Assembly: GCA_945917765.1 (NCBI GenBank)
Contig: CAMEHU010000002.1
Coordinates: forward strand, 25,681 to 89,680
Length of the DNA: 64,000 bases
From: an uncultured Lachnospiraceae bacterium
GTDB taxonomy: Bacteria; Bacillota; Clostridia; TANB77; CAG-508
Reading direction: 5' to 3'
In this document: positions 8,705-37,697 of the stretch, one piece after another
Numbering within the stretch: the stretch's first letter is position 1
Layout of the letters: each line of letters opens with the position of its first letter
Translations under genes and position numbers: made by a program
Notes under the pieces: generated by a model
What the model saw: the letters and a program-made list of their open reading frames with translations, nothing else
Told to the model about the DNA's origin: nothing
The model's database searches: none

Positions 8705-8811
8705 TTGTTTTCCTCCTTGTTTTTCAAAGTTTTATATTGTTAGTATTGCAAGAATTTACAAAATTATACGAAAAAAACTTTGAACAAAATTTGTTCAAAG
8801 TTTTTTATAAA

Positions 8812-9021
8812 TTATTCTTTATTATTCTTTTCTCCTAAACTTTGTGCAATATCCTTTTTCAAAACATATTCTGCTTCACTTCTTGTTCTAACAGTTGGAT
8901 CAATCTTTCTAGCTCTATCTATAATTCTTTTATGTTCCATAATGCCATAAATAAAACCACCTATTGCAACCATACAAGAAATAACTATGAAAACAATATG
9001 TCCAATTGAAAATCCCTCCAT
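8812..9021 (-). CDS. small single-TM hypothetical protein
   Basis: 69 aa ORF with N-terminal hydrophobic segment. Confidence 0.5.
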   Translation of the reverse strand: MEGFSIGHIVFIVISCMVAIGGFIYGIMEHKRIIDRARKIDPTVRTRSEAEYVLKKDIAQSLGEKNNKE

Positions 9022-9111
9022 ATTTAATCCCTCCTTTTCAAATTCAACGCTGTTTCATATCATATGAACGTTACAGTTTAACACAATATTTATCAAAAAA
9101 ATTATAAATAA

Positions 9112-9139
9112 TTGACAAAAAATTTTTTTATGATATACT
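9112..9139 (+). promoter_or_regulatory. sigmaA-type promoter of the peptide precursor
   Basis: TTGACA (9112-9117), 16 bp spacer, TATACT (9134-9139); followed by AGGAGG at 9178-9183. Confidence 0.8.
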
Positions 9140-9191
9140 AATATGTGGATTATTAATAATTCAAAAGCAAAAGATTTAGGAGGTACTTATA

Positions 9192-9365
9192 ATGAAAAGA
9201 ATGAGTGAAAAAGAATTAAAAAGAATAGATGGTGGAGTTGGATGTATAGGTTATGAATTACCTAGACCAAACGAAGATAGTTATATAAAACCATCTGATC
9301 AAAACGGTTTGTCTTCTAGTGGTTGGGGATTTGTTGCTTCATACTTTGGATATAAAAGACGTTAA
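9192..9365 (+). CDS. double-glycine leader bacteriocin/RiPP precursor peptide (57 aa)
   Basis: Read directly: MKRMSEKELKRIDGG|VGCIGYELPRPNEDSYIKPSDQNGLSSSGWGFVASYFGYKRR; AGGAGG 8 nt upstream; GG leader with E-8, L-7, I-4; next to a C39-peptidase exporter. Below the ORF-track size cutoff. Confidence 0.85.
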   Translation: MKRMSEKELKRIDGGVGCIGYELPRPNEDSYIKPSDQNGLSSSGWGFVASYFGYKRR

Positions 9366-9373
9366 TATAAAGA

Positions 9374-9406
9374 AAGCACTTAAGTTTATACTTAAGTGTT
9401 TTTTTA
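9374..9406. terminator. bidirectional intrinsic terminator between precursor and exporter
   Basis: agcacttaag-tttata-cttaagtgtttttttt. Confidence 0.85.
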
Positions 9407-11569
9407 ATGTAATACTTCCTTATGTTGGGTTTTCCATAATTCATAAAAAATTCCTTTTTTATTTATTAATTCATTTGGAGTTCCAATTTCTGTTATATAC
9501 CCATCTTTTAAAGAAATAATTTTATCACATTTAGTAAGTACATTTAATCTATGTGCAATAATTATTTTGATTGTATTTTTTTCAGCTGATAAATTATCGA
9601 CAATACCTTCTTCTGTTATTGTATCCAAATTACTTGTTGATTCATCTAATATAAGCACATCAGGATATGTGAGCAATGCTTTTGCTAAAGATAATCTTTG
9701 CTTTTCTCCTGTTGATAAATTTGTTGCTCCTTCTTCAATTTTGGTTTGTAATCCTAAGGCTTTATTATTTATATATTCTTTCATTTTAACAATATCTAGT
9801 ACTTTATTAACTTCATCTTCACTAACATTATTATTTCCAATTGTTAAATTGTTATAAATAGTATCTTGAAACCAAAAGTCGTTTTGAGAAACATATGTAA
9901 TTTTCTTTCTTAATGATGCTGTTGTTAAATTATTTATATTCTCATCATTTATATAAATTGCTCCATCTGTTACTTCGAAAAAATTTAATAAAAGTTTTAT
10001 AAGAGTAGTTTTTCCAGATCCACTTGAGCCAATTATTCCAATGCTTTCCCCTTCTTTAATATTAAAATTAATATTATTTAATATTGGTTCTCTTAATCCA
10101 TATTGAAATGTTACATTTTCGAATTCTATTCGTTTTATTTTATTTACTATTTCTCTTTTTTCTTTATTTAATTCATCTTCAGTAGTAGTCATAAAAACAT
10201 CATCTAATCTTTCTAATGCTGCATTTGTTTCATATAGTTTATCTTGAATTCTAATTATATATCCAATCGGTCCTAATAAATATCCCTGAAGTGTATATAA
10301 AAACATTAATTCTCCCATTGTTATTTTTCCAGTCATAACTAATGTTCCTAATGTTGAAAGCATTATTAATTGGCTTATTTGAATTATTATTCCTATCAAA
10401 CTACCTTGAATTGCAAATAACTTTTTTGTATTATAGAATAATTTTTGATAATTTTCATATTTATAATTCATGCTATTTTCCACATATTTTTCTGAATTAT
10501 AGCTTTTTACCGTTTCACTTCCTATAAAAGATGCACTTGCAAAAGAATAAATATCTGTAACAGATTTTTTTATTTTTCTTGTTTTTTCAATTGATTTATT
10601 TCCAAAAATCTTTTGAATTATTATTATTAATAGCATCATTACAAACGCTATGACTGCAATTTGCCAGCATCCTTTTATAAGTACTATTATTAAAGCAAAA
10701 ATTGCATACACAACATCAATAAGAAAGTCAGATGTATAATCTGTTATAATTGAACGAATTATATCTCCATCTTGAAACCTTGTAATTAAATCTCCAGATG
10801 TTCTTGAGGTAAAAAAGCTCATTGGAAGGTTTGTAATTCTATTAAATATATTTAATGTTAATTCTTTATCAAGTTTTTTTGTGAATTTTAAAGAAACCTT
10901 TAATTTTATCCAATCTACTGCAACAGTAAATATATATATTCCAATTATTATTAAAACCATCTGCCATAATAAATTTAATTTATATTGTGGTATAATAGTA
11001 TCTATAAAAAAAGAGTAAAAGCTTGCTGCTACAACACTTATTCCCGATATTATTGCCGATAAAATTATTAAAAAGATTAAGTGTTTTTTAAATTTTAAAA
11101 TTAGATCAAATATTAATTTATATGTTCTTTTATATTTTTTTATTTCTTTAAAATTTTCTTTTGGTTTAAATGTAAGTATTTCGCTTGTCCAAATTTCATT
11201 AAACTTGTCCCATTTCATGACTTGTTTACCTTCACTTGGATCTCCGATAACTACTGTATTTTCATTTGCCTCAAAAACAACTATATAATGTTGCTTATAT
11301 CCCTCAATTACAGTATGCACTATAATTGGGAAATTCACATTGCTGTTTAAAAGATCTTCTTTTGTTGCAAAAAAGGCGTCTGTTTCTAAATTCAATTTTT
11401 CTCCTGCTAATTTTAATGAATACATTGAATTGCCTTCTCTATCAGTCTTAGCAAATTCTCTTATTACTGCTAAAGATATGTTTTCAACTCCATAATAAGC
11501 ACATATCATTGCTAAGCATGCGACACCACAATTTTTCTCATCTGGTTGTTTGTAAATTTTGTATTTCAT
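9404..11569 (-). CDS. peptidase C39-containing ABC transporter (PCAT; bacteriocin processing/export)
   Basis: N-terminal C39 QPDEKNCGVACLAMICAYYG with HYIVVFE and GDPSEG; ABC TMD; Walker A GSSGSGKTT; LSTGEKQR signature; LILDEST. Confidence 0.95.
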   Translation of the reverse strand: MKYKIYKQPDEKNCGVACLAMICAYYGVENISLAVIREFAKTDREGNSMYSLKLAGEKLNLETDAFFATKEDLLNSNVNFPIIVHTVIEGYKQHYIVVFEANENTVVIGDPSEGKQVMKWDKFNEIWTSEILTFKPKENFKEIKKYKRTYKLIFDLILKFKKHLIFLIILSAIISGISVVAASFYSFFIDTIIPQYKLNLLWQMVLIIIGIYIFTVAVDWIKLKVSLKFTKKLDKELTLNIFNRITNLPMSFFTSRTSGDLITRFQDGDIIRSIITDYTSDFLIDVVYAIFALIIVLIKGCWQIAVIAFVMMLLIIIIQKIFGNKSIEKTRKIKKSVTDIYSFASASFIGSETVKSYNSEKYVENSMNYKYENYQKLFYNTKKLFAIQGSLIGIIIQISQLIMLSTLGTLVMTGKITMGELMFLYTLQGYLLGPIGYIIRIQDKLYETNAALERLDDVFMTTTEDELNKEKREIVNKIKRIEFENVTFQYGLREPILNNINFNIKEGESIGIIGSSGSGKTTLIKLLLNFFEVTDGAIYINDENINNLTTASLRKKITYVSQNDFWFQDTIYNNLTIGNNNVSEDEVNKVLDIVKMKEYINNKALGLQTKIEEGATNLSTGEKQRLSLAKALLTYPDVLILDESTSNLDTITEEGIVDNLSAEKNTIKIIIAHRLNVLTKCDKIISLKDGYITEIGTPNELINKKGIFYELWKTQHKEVLH

Positions 11570-11614
11570 TTCTGTGACTCCTCATACTATTTGTACTTTG
11601 ATGTTATAATATTT

Positions 11615-12112
11615 TTATATATTATGCAAACATATTAATTCATTTAGATACTTTACTTTTATTTCTTCAGTATTTTTTCCAAAAAATTCTTTTGAATAAA
11701 TTTTTCCTAATAATTTATAATTATTTTCCTCTAAATATTTATACATTCCTTGTTCATTTTCAACTACCAGACCAACACATATATCCGCTTCTTTATTTAT
11801 TATTTCATTATACAAATATTCTAGCGAAAAATAATTATAAAACATATCACCCATTTCAATAAACATTACATATTTGTTTTCTGTTTTATCAATAATGCTA
11901 TTTAAATAATTTTCTCCTTTGCAATTTATTACTTGAATATTTATTTTTTCTTTAAATGTTTCTGCTTCACTTAAATAATCTTCATTAAACGAACTATCTA
12001 CTAAATATATTTTTAATTCATCTTTTATTGATTGCCCACAAATTGACAGAAGTGTTTTTCTTAAATCTCCATTACTTTGATGTTCTTTTGGTGTTATAAT
12101 TATATCTATCAT
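11615..12112 (-). CDS. truncated/degenerate GT2-like protein
   Basis: N-terminus aligns by eye with the two neighbouring GT2s but has IEMGDMF where they have MDSDDV/IDSDDV, and lacks the C-terminal half. Confidence 0.7.
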   Translation of the reverse strand: MIDIIITPKEHQSNGDLRKTLLSICGQSIKDELKIYLVDSSFNEDYLSEAETFKEKINIQVINCKGENYLNSIIDKTENKYVMFIEMGDMFYNYFSLEYLYNEIINKEADICVGLVVENEQGMYKYLEENNYKLLGKIYSKEFFGKNTEEIKVKYLNELICLHNI

Positions 12113-12113
12113 A

Positions 12114-13112
12114 TTAGGCCTCCTGTATTAAATTAATAAAATCATCGAATGATATAGATATATATTTAAGTGAAATTCCTCTGTTTTGAAAACTTTCTAT
12201 TCTTTTTTCTATAATCATTTTTTTAGTTTTTTCATCTTTTACTGAATATTTCTCATATATTTCTTTCATCTCTTTCAATTGTTTTAAAAACATTTTTGAA
12301 TTATTTATATTCATATATCCTATATAGTTAAAATAAAAATTCACCATATATTCCAATGCAGTTTCTGATATTTTTTTATATGAACATTTATCATTAATAG
12401 CTGTTTCAAGTGCATTTGTAATGTTATAAATATAATTTATAAAAAATTTTAATTTAAACTCATCATTTTTTGTCCTTGTTAATGAATTTTTGTTAAAACA
12501 CCATATGTATGTTATATCATCTATATATTTTATTTTTGAATCATATAAAAAAACTTTACGATTAAATCCTACATCTTCATTATATCTTGTATTATTAAAT
12601 CTTATTTTATTTGTTTCTAAAAAGCTTCTTTTATATATTTTTCCATGAACCCATGTCATATCTTCAAAATGTTCAACCATTTCATTATTTTCAAGTTGTT
12701 CTAAAAAGCTTGAAACAACCAAGTCATAGTCGTTATCTTTAATTTCATTATATAAAGTTCGAACTTCACTTGGTCCTGCCAAAACATCGTCTGAATCCAT
12801 AAAAATAATATATGGATTATTTGAATTATCAATTCCATATTGTCTGGCTATTCCTGGGCCTGAATTTTCACTTAAATTCAATTCTGTAATATTCATAAAT
12901 TTTTTAAAAAAGTTTACTTGTTCTGAATAATCATTATCCGATTTATCATTTATTATATATACATTTATATCTTTTATGTTTTCTTGATATGCAATGGAAA
13001 ACAGAGTTCTATCAATTGTTTTATGTGCATTATATGCAGGTATTATTATGTCTATCATTTTTTCCTCTTTTTTATATGTTTTAATCTTCGATTTTTTCAA
13101 TAAACTCATCAA
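12114..13112 (-). CDS. glycosyltransferase family 2 protein
   Basis: MIDIIIPAYNAHKTIDRTLFSI..., FMDSDDV DxD motif. Confidence 0.92.
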   Translation of the reverse strand: MMSLLKKSKIKTYKKEEKMIDIIIPAYNAHKTIDRTLFSIAYQENIKDINVYIINDKSDNDYSEQVNFFKKFMNITELNLSENSGPGIARQYGIDNSNNPYIIFMDSDDVLAGPSEVRTLYNEIKDNDYDLVVSSFLEQLENNEMVEHFEDMTWVHGKIYKRSFLETNKIRFNNTRYNEDVGFNRKVFLYDSKIKYIDDITYIWCFNKNSLTRTKNDEFKLKFFINYIYNITNALETAINDKCSYKKISETALEYMVNFYFNYIGYMNINNSKMFLKQLKEMKEIYEKYSVKDEKTKKMIIEKRIESFQNRGISLKYISISFDDFINLIQEA

Positions 13113-14004
13113 TTGTCATTTTGGGTGTTTCTTTACCATATATGAAATCCATCAAATATCCTATTTTATATTTTTCGGGTAAAATGTCAAAATACTCTTT
13201 ATGTCTTTTTTTCAATTTTGAAAGATCTTGAAACACAAATGATAAATCAATGTCTTCTTCATTATATACATATTTTGAATAACCATATAATATTGTATGA
13301 TATATAAATCCTGCAATATTTTCAGCATCCAAATTTCTTTTTATACATTCCTCAACAAGCCATGTATACGCATATATATAGTTTTTTAGATTTTGATAAG
13401 TATCTGTATGACCTTTTGTTATTGAATCAGGATTATAATTGTATTGATAAATAATTTTTTTGGTTTGTGCTATGTGATTACAACAATTCATATATAAGTA
13501 ATTAAATACATTATCTTCATGGTTTCTTGCATCACAAAATTTTATAGAATTTTTTTCTATAACACTTCTTCTATACATTTTTCCGTGCAAACATCCTTTA
13601 AATATTCTAATATAATTAAAAACACCTTGAGGCTTTTCTTCTATAATCGCACCTATAATAAAATCTTTTTTACCAATTTTTTTATATAGATTTGCTAATG
13701 AGTGTTTATTATAAAAAACATCATCAGAATCTATAAAAACTATATATTCATTTTTCGATATATCTAATCCCTTTTGCCTTGATAATCCTGGTCCAAGATT
13801 TTTTTCATTTCTTATTATTGTTATATCAAGTTTGTTTTCAAATAATTCCAATAAATAGTTATAATCTTTTTGACTATGGTCATCTATTATATATACTTTA
13901 ACTAGCTTTTTTAACGTTTGCTTTTCTATACTTAAAAGAGTTTTTACTATAGTTTTATGTGCGTTATATGCTGTTATTATTATATCAATCATTTTGTCCT
14001 CCAC
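13081..14004 (-). CDS. glycosyltransferase family 2 protein
   Basis: MIDIIITAYNAHKTIVKTLLSI..., FIDSDDVF, NHEDNVF. Confidence 0.92.
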   Translation of the reverse strand: MEDKMIDIIITAYNAHKTIVKTLLSIEKQTLKKLVKVYIIDDHSQKDYNYLLELFENKLDITIIRNEKNLGPGLSRQKGLDISKNEYIVFIDSDDVFYNKHSLANLYKKIGKKDFIIGAIIEEKPQGVFNYIRIFKGCLHGKMYRRSVIEKNSIKFCDARNHEDNVFNYLYMNCCNHIAQTKKIIYQYNYNPDSITKGHTDTYQNLKNYIYAYTWLVEECIKRNLDAENIAGFIYHTILYGYSKYVYNEEDIDLSFVFQDLSKLKKRHKEYFDILPEKYKIGYLMDFIYGKETPKMTIDEFIEKIED

Positions 14005-14481
14005 CTAATATATAGTTTTATCACGCTTTTCAGCAAAGCTCTCAAAAGTTTTTATTGTTTCTTCTCTATCAATACAATTTAATTCTAACACCTCATTATC
14101 TTCAACTTCATCAGTTAATTTTTTTATAAAACTATAAATGTAATCATCTCTAAATCCAATGTTTGCAGCATCTTCTTTAGTGTTTCCGTAATAAACCTTT
14201 TTAATATTAGACCAAATTATTGCTGACAAACACATAGGACATGGATAGCATGAAGTATATAATTCACATTCACTTAAATCATATGAATTAATATTTTTAC
14301 ATGCATCTCTTATTGCCATTACTTCAGCATGAGCTGTTGGGTCATTATTACTTAAAACATGATTTGACCCCTTTCCTATTATTTTTCCATCTTTTACAAT
14401 ACATGCACCAAAAGGTCCTCCAACATTTGTTTTCAAATTATTTTCTGATAATTCCTTTGCTATTTTCATATATTCATTCAT
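14005..14481 (-). CDS. nucleoside/guanine deaminase (CDA superfamily)
   Basis: TAHAEVMAIRDA and YTSCYPCPMCLSAIIWSNI zinc-binding motifs; guanine-deaminase-like. Confidence 0.88.
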   Translation of the reverse strand: MNEYMKIAKELSENNLKTNVGGPFGACIVKDGKIIGKGSNHVLSNNDPTAHAEVMAIRDACKNINSYDLSECELYTSCYPCPMCLSAIIWSNIKKVYYGNTKEDAANIGFRDDYIYSFIKKLTDEVEDNEVLELNCIDREETIKTFESFAEKRDKTIY

Positions 14482-14515
14482 ACTTCATACCTCCTATTTG
14501 ATACTTTCCTGAAAA

Positions 14516-15079
14516 CTAATCCACAATTTCCTCTAAAACCCAATCATAGTCTCTCAAAACATACACACTTCCACAATATTCACAAACTCCATTTTTGTTT
14601 AGGTCAATATTTGCTCCACATCCTGTACATTTTCTAGCATTTCCAAGAGCTTTTGCATTTTTTATTTTTGAGAATTTAAGTTTAACATATTTTTCTGTTC
14701 TAACATCTCTATTACCATCTATAAATTTCTTAGTATCTTTGGCTATTCTATAATCTAAATATTTAGTTAACAATTTTACATCAATTTCAAATCTATCATC
14801 AAATTCCTCAATATTTGTTATTGTAGTATCTGAAACATTTAATTCATCATAAACTTGAATTTGATTATTTGCTTGTAATTGTTTTATTTTACTACTATAT
14901 TTCTCATATACTTCATCAGATAAAAAGTGTCTAATATTCTCTAAATTTTGTTTCATAACTCCTGTGTATAATTTTATATAAACATTATCAACTTTTGCTT
15001 TAAATTTTGCCTCTGAAAATTCTTTGTCTTCATTAATTAAATTATTTAAAACCTCACTCATTTTTGTTTCTCCCTTCAT
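14516..15079 (-). CDS. zinc-ribbon, TIM44-like domain protein (YdjG-like)
   Basis: C-terminal CTGCGANIDLNKNGVCEYCG zinc ribbon after a TIM44-like region. Confidence 0.65.
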   Translation of the reverse strand: MKGETKMSEVLNNLINEDKEFSEAKFKAKVDNVYIKLYTGVMKQNLENIRHFLSDEVYEKYSSKIKQLQANNQIQVYDELNVSDTTITNIEEFDDRFEIDVKLLTKYLDYRIAKDTKKFIDGNRDVRTEKYVKLKFSKIKNAKALGNARKCTGCGANIDLNKNGVCEYCGSVYVLRDYDWVLEEIVD

Positions 15080-15158
15080 TTAACTTTTTTATACTTTTTT
15101 TATAATACCACAATAATAAAAAAGAGACAATATTTTGCCTCTTTTTTATATTAATTTA

Positions 15159-37449: not shown

Positions 37450-37697
37450 TAATTAAAATACAGCGAAAAAGAGACTAGTAATAAACTCCCTTTTATCTAG
37501 AGAGATTATGGTTGGTGGAAATAATCTAAAATAGTTTATGAATCTACTCTTTAGCTTTTAGTGAAAACTAAACCTAGTAATGCAAGGTTATAAGCATTGT
37601 TAAGATATAGAGTTTACTTTTAATGTAGATTTTATAATTAAGGTGGCACCGCGATAATTTATTCGTCCTTATGTTTATTCATAAGGACGATTTTTGA
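37450..37697 (+). promoter_or_regulatory. T-box leader upstream of serS
   Basis: T-box AAGGTGGCACCGCG (37640-37653), stem I region, terminator cgtccttatg...cataaggacgattttt. Confidence 0.93.

Follow-up and report, generated by a model that had tools for sequence, protein, structure and literature searches.

A hot-spot cassette combining a predicted double-glycine peptide, a PCAT exporter and paired glycosyltransferases unlike SunS

Three family-2 glycosyltransferase genes (GT1, GT2 and the truncated GT3) and the gene of a C39 peptidase–ABC exporter (PCAT) constitute a single tight minus-strand operon in the analyzed stretch of DNA (64 kb, further referred to as the window), and the gene of a double-glycine (GG) precursor peptide converges on the end of this operon (Table 1). 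Each of these five genes has a Shine–Dalgarno sequence. The likely true starts of GT1 and GT2 are ATG codons at 13992 and 13058, with Shine–Dalgarno sequences GGTGGAGG and AGAGG, respectively; with these starts the gap between the two genes is 22 nt, and GT3 and PCAT, both with good Shine–Dalgarno sequences, are 45 nt apart. The genes are present as described in the first-pass annotation, with the same boundaries of GT3 and PCAT, and the nearly gapless gene run reported there holds for the 45-nt gap before PCAT, while the claimed overlap at 13112/13081 is an artifact, as upstream alternative starts had been taken. The terminator shared by the precursor and PCAT genes has –18.6 kcal/mol on the plus strand. 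The cassette is AT-rich, with the GC content of 24.1% (22.6% in the GT genes), compared to 27.6% in the window. The 69-aa membrane protein is probably a part of the cassette and may be regarded as a candidate immunity protein.

Table 1. Features of the cassette and their positions in the window.
Feature	Position	Strand	Remarks
Inserted cassette	8807–14004	n/a	homology to empty same-genus sites breaks at 8751–8806 and at 14516–14532, with the deaminase in between
GT1, GT-A family-2 glycosyltransferase	13081–13992	–	listed ORF reaches 14004
GT2, GT-A family-2 glycosyltransferase	12114–13058	–	DSDD and HGK/NED-type motifs; listed ORF reaches 13112
GT3, truncated GT-A domain	11615–12112	–	EMGD for DSDD; without C-terminal domain
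PCAT, 721 aa	9404–11569	–	C39 peptidase (C14, H94, D110), ABC membrane and ABC ATPase domains
Double-glycine precursor, 57 aa	9192–9365	+	leader MKRMSEKELKRIDGG; 42-aa core; Shine–Dalgarno AGGAGG
Sigma-70-type promoter of the precursor gene	9112–9139	+	TTGACA–16 nt–TATACT
Bidirectional hairpin terminator	9366–9410	both	between convergent precursor and PCAT stops
Single-TM protein, 69 aa	8812–9021	–	strong Shine–Dalgarno; inside the inserted segment

In genomes of the same genus the gene order Tk–Tim44a–Tim44b–variable region–SpoVT–GAPDH is retained, the Tim44 genes being absent from some genomes. The site is empty in G093 and G109 and filled with unrelated inserts in G232, G125, and G199; the GT1–GT2–GT3–PCAT operon is absent from same-genus genomes, where the site is either empty or otherwise filled. 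Compared to the empty sites, the window ceases to be homologous at 8751–8806 and at 14516–14532. The Tim44b–SpoVT stretch (8751–14532 of the window and the corresponding same-genus sites) is an insertion hot spot, and its cargo differs among genomes. Elsewhere in the window, a T-box leader (Rfam RF00230) is located at 37457–37673 and is unrelated to the cassette.

The deaminase gene (14005–14481) abuts GT1 in the same orientation, falls between the homology ends, and had been assigned to the same transcript. Its product is nearest to guanine deaminase, and ~78–85% identical proteins are present in same-genus genomes without this PCAT and these GTs; in G199 the gene is kept at the same place, with DNA identity of 75.9% across 14006–15087. 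Because of the homology ends, the occurrence in genomes without this PCAT and these GTs, and the presence at the G199 site, we consider the deaminase a neighbor and reject it as a cluster member. The proposed single operon is hence retained for the GTs and PCAT, with the GG precursor converging, and synteny removes the deaminase from it.

The precursor core has one Cys and six Ser. Matches of the leader to known families are near-threshold only (15.4 bits with TIGR01847, at the cut-off of 15.7). Still, the precursor is the sole small ORF of the 64-kb window fitting the strict GG-leader pattern, and it adjoins PCAT, with no other C39 peptidase detected in the genome, so that it is not a chance ORF. 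No relatives of the precursor were found in viral contigs. The PCAT domains (PF03412, PF00664, PF00005) all score above cut-offs, its three catalytic residues are invariant in the alignment, and the score with the TIGR01193 bacteriocin_ABC model is 502.6 bits, the curated cut-off being 523.85.

The MAGs with close relatives of PCAT (49–60%) belong to other genera, and one additional family of the order is represented among them; no GTs were found beside these relatives. Where the flank is covered, the neighbor is a pyrimidine-nucleoside-phosphorylase-like gene, and more complete loci also hold a small TM protein. In two loci (L036, L037) a GG peptide is encoded convergently downstream of the PCAT relative, with the core unrelated to that of the window. 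As these cores differ and the relatives lack GTs, this PCAT subfamily seems to export variable GG peptides, with the GTs being an addition here. The PCAT and GT combination was observed in one locus only, among loci examined. No PCAT relatives were found in viral contigs, and nothing closer than ~33–35% relatives was found on plasmids. A cluster of a PCAT, an HlyD-like protein, and a GG peptide (L045, genome G137) is located on a plasmid-like contig with replication and relaxase-like genes.

The phosphorylase homologue accompanies PCAT relatives in L036 (5710–6984), L037 (5713–6984), L038 (5683–6966), L039 (5708–6979), L040 (1720–3024), and L052 (1287–2561). Its phosphate-binding segments look eroded, DKHSTGGVGD having changed to DIHAIGGIQD and the HTGGT loop having been deleted. 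Judging by its sequence, this degenerate homologue looks as if repurposed for the peptide-export system.

Both GT1 and GT2 have the GT-A fold with a DXD motif, DSDD in each case. GT3 has no DXD, scores 23.0 with the GT2 family at the cut-off of 23.3, and stops short of the C-terminal helical domain; it is nonetheless predicted to fold (pLDDT 86). The degeneracy noted earlier for the third GT, truncated and with EMGD in place of DSDD, is thus borne out, and GT3 is likely catalytically dead. In a Foldseek search with the AF2 model of GT1 (pLDDT 91), the closest solved folds are TarS, TarP, and RmlT (TM about 0.7), followed by GalT1, whereas SunS (7msp) has rank 50 and TM 0.48. The SunS-type NCBIfam model does not match the GTs at E ≤ 1, in agreement with the first-pass view that they are unlike SunS. 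Phage TarP is among the sequence matches. The likeness to the wall-teichoic-acid enzymes TarS, TarP, and RmlT is by fold only, with ~17–20% identity in structural alignments.

In a search of the taxonomic order with the subfamily profile, the proteins of the window, G106, G078, and G377 scored at E < 1e-80 and generic GT2s at 1.6e-41 or weaker, leaving a clear gap. In the tree, the window subfamily is separated from a clade of the sampled generic GT2s, which had been taken from unrelated loci and from loci such as flippase/polysaccharide clusters (G389, G504). GT2 of the window pairs with G377c (support 99/93, 49% identity), and GT1 groups, with moderate support, with G377b, G106b, and GT3. 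Both lineages are present in each of three other bacterial genomes (G106, G223, G377). Hence, at the sequence level, the subfamily consists of two lineages recurring as pairs and is separate from polysaccharide GT2s.

Neighborhoods of the subfamily point to protein substrates. Subfamily GTs adjoin EssC/WXG-like genes in G223, WXG-like genes on two contigs of G377, BspA/DUF285 surface proteins in G106, and collagen-like proteins in G078. In phages, the commonest identified neighbors, by PHROG assignment of 105 neighbor proteins, are major head protein families (11 matches, split 5, 4, and 2 among three families); the commonest assignments also include terminase and endolysin, and no polysaccharide family occurs among the top 25. 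In one phage (L108) the order is a capsid-like gene, GT8-like, GT2, and late genes, as named by inspection. According to the first-pass annotation, its reading would fail if loci for capsule or teichoic acid proved to be the main context of such GTs; instead, the relatives adjoin exported-protein or virion genes. These data are guilt by association, with the viral set being viral by construction and the bacterial sample comprising five genomes. As the neighbors are protein genes, a protein acceptor is favored for the subfamily; a non-peptide acceptor is also conceivable, since the closest solved folds are those of wall-teichoic-acid GTs.

Several of these loci deserve separate mention. In G078 (L031, 3017–7832) a subfamily GT2 lies between genes with collagen-like (GPTGPQG) repeats. 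Type VII-secretion-like loci of G223 (L030) and G377 (L205, L206) encode FHA-EssC, WXG-like proteins, and SDPCH repeats, along with GT2 pairs, GT2–GT8 fusions, a GT2–acetyltransferase fusion, and an FkbM methyltransferase, and possibly represent a glycosylation island for secreted WXG-like proteins. More than 120 subfamily GT2 genes (profile E < 1e-30, near-duplicates included) were observed in IMG/VR phages (L096–L175, L219–L296), many of them amid virion and lysis genes. Mycobacteriophage GTs, proposed to act on the capsid protein (Freeman et al., 2023, as cited in PMC11256854), are similarly encoded in phage genomes; they come from other hosts and are likened here by description, the acceptor of the window subfamily being putative. 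A literature search for links between GT2s and type VII secretion (T7SS) yielded nothing useful.

Among known systems, glycocins (sublancin, glycocin F, enterocin F4-9, pallidocin, thermoglycocin) resemble the cassette in having a precursor with a GG (or GK) leader, a cytosolic GT2-family enzyme, and a PCAT trimming and exporting the peptide, and the GG-type precursor is indeed found beside PCAT here. This joint presence of a GT2-family enzyme, PCAT, and GG precursor would fit a true SunS-type glycocin, yet we consider this highly improbable: the GTs are not SunS-like by either sequence or fold, two active-looking GTs and a pseudo-GT occur in place of a single GT, and the core has one Cys and no nested disulfides, compared to 5–8 Cys in characterized glycocins (PMC6405829, PMC12457901). 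No thiol-disulfide oxidoreductase was found in the cassette; this and the single-Cys core had been correctly noted before. Because of one Cys, no disulfide-forming enzyme, and no SunS, the cassette is not a glycocin as characterized, and SunS-type membership is rejected. Possibly, it functions in the manner of a glycocin, glycosylation being putative. In a mining paper on Bacteroidales, GTs near PCATs are given as SunS-type GlyS or undefined GTs. Class II bacteriocin cassettes (TIGR01193) share the GG leader, C39-ABC exporter, and a nearby small membrane protein, but here PCAT scores slightly below the curated cut-off, an HlyD-type accessory protein is absent, and GTs are found within the operon.

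The best single explanation, to which we assign an even chance, is that GT1 and GT2 glycosylate the exported GG peptide. It leads because the neighbors favor a protein acceptor and because, in this genome, the export route next to the GTs is that of a GG peptide. Under this model, a bacteriocin-type cassette would have been acquired laterally, with the precursor expressed from its own promoter. GT1 and GT2 would glycosylate the core in the cytosol, ahead of export, one beginning the glycan and the other extending it; the sugar would most likely be O-linked to Ser of the SSSGWG stretch, or else attached to the lone Cys. GT3 may be a non-catalytic helper or a remnant. PCAT, inserted together with the precursor gene, would recognize and cut the GG leader by its C39 domain and export the 42-aa core, presumably with an antibacterial role, and the 69-aa membrane protein would confer immunity.

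Against peptide glycosylation count the single known PCAT and GT locus, the close PCAT relatives working without GTs, and the TarS/TarP/RmlT-like folds. The latter two observations, and phage TarP among the sequence matches, would also suit an unmodified class II-like bacteriocin, with the GT pair modifying teichoic acid or a surface glycan of the producer's envelope and so masking the target as a form of immunity. We find this rather unlikely, as, unlike TarS, TarP, and RmlT, the subfamily occurs beside protein genes, in two-lineage sets, and not beside envelope-glycan genes, and immunity would be explained more simply by the 69-aa membrane protein. The contents of the hot spot, unrelated in G199, G232, and G125, and the separate occurrence of PCAT and of the GT pair elsewhere agree with the GTs and PCAT/peptide being independent passengers, the GTs acting on another exported protein. 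This is unlikely given the 45-nt GT3–PCAT spacing in a single-operon layout. Moreover, no EssC-type T7SS was found in the genome, with an FtsK-like match only, and T7SS is rejected as a hidden client of the GTs. The WXG100 Pfam search of the genome was also negative, which tells nothing, as the same model misses the WXG-like proteins of G223 and G377.

Glycosylation of the GG peptide by the GT pair would mean that GG peptides can become glycosylated by a second route, independent of SunS, with a two-lineage GT2 pair coupled to PCAT, a reading to which we give slightly less than an even chance. If so, bacteriocin-like systems acquired peptide glycosylation more than once, and the GT2 subfamily, which is common in phages of the rumen and in gut Clostridia with small genomes, would be protein-directed, with many candidate glycoproteins, such as T7SS-type substrates, collagen-like proteins, and phage capsids, and may yield compact tools for peptide glycosylation.
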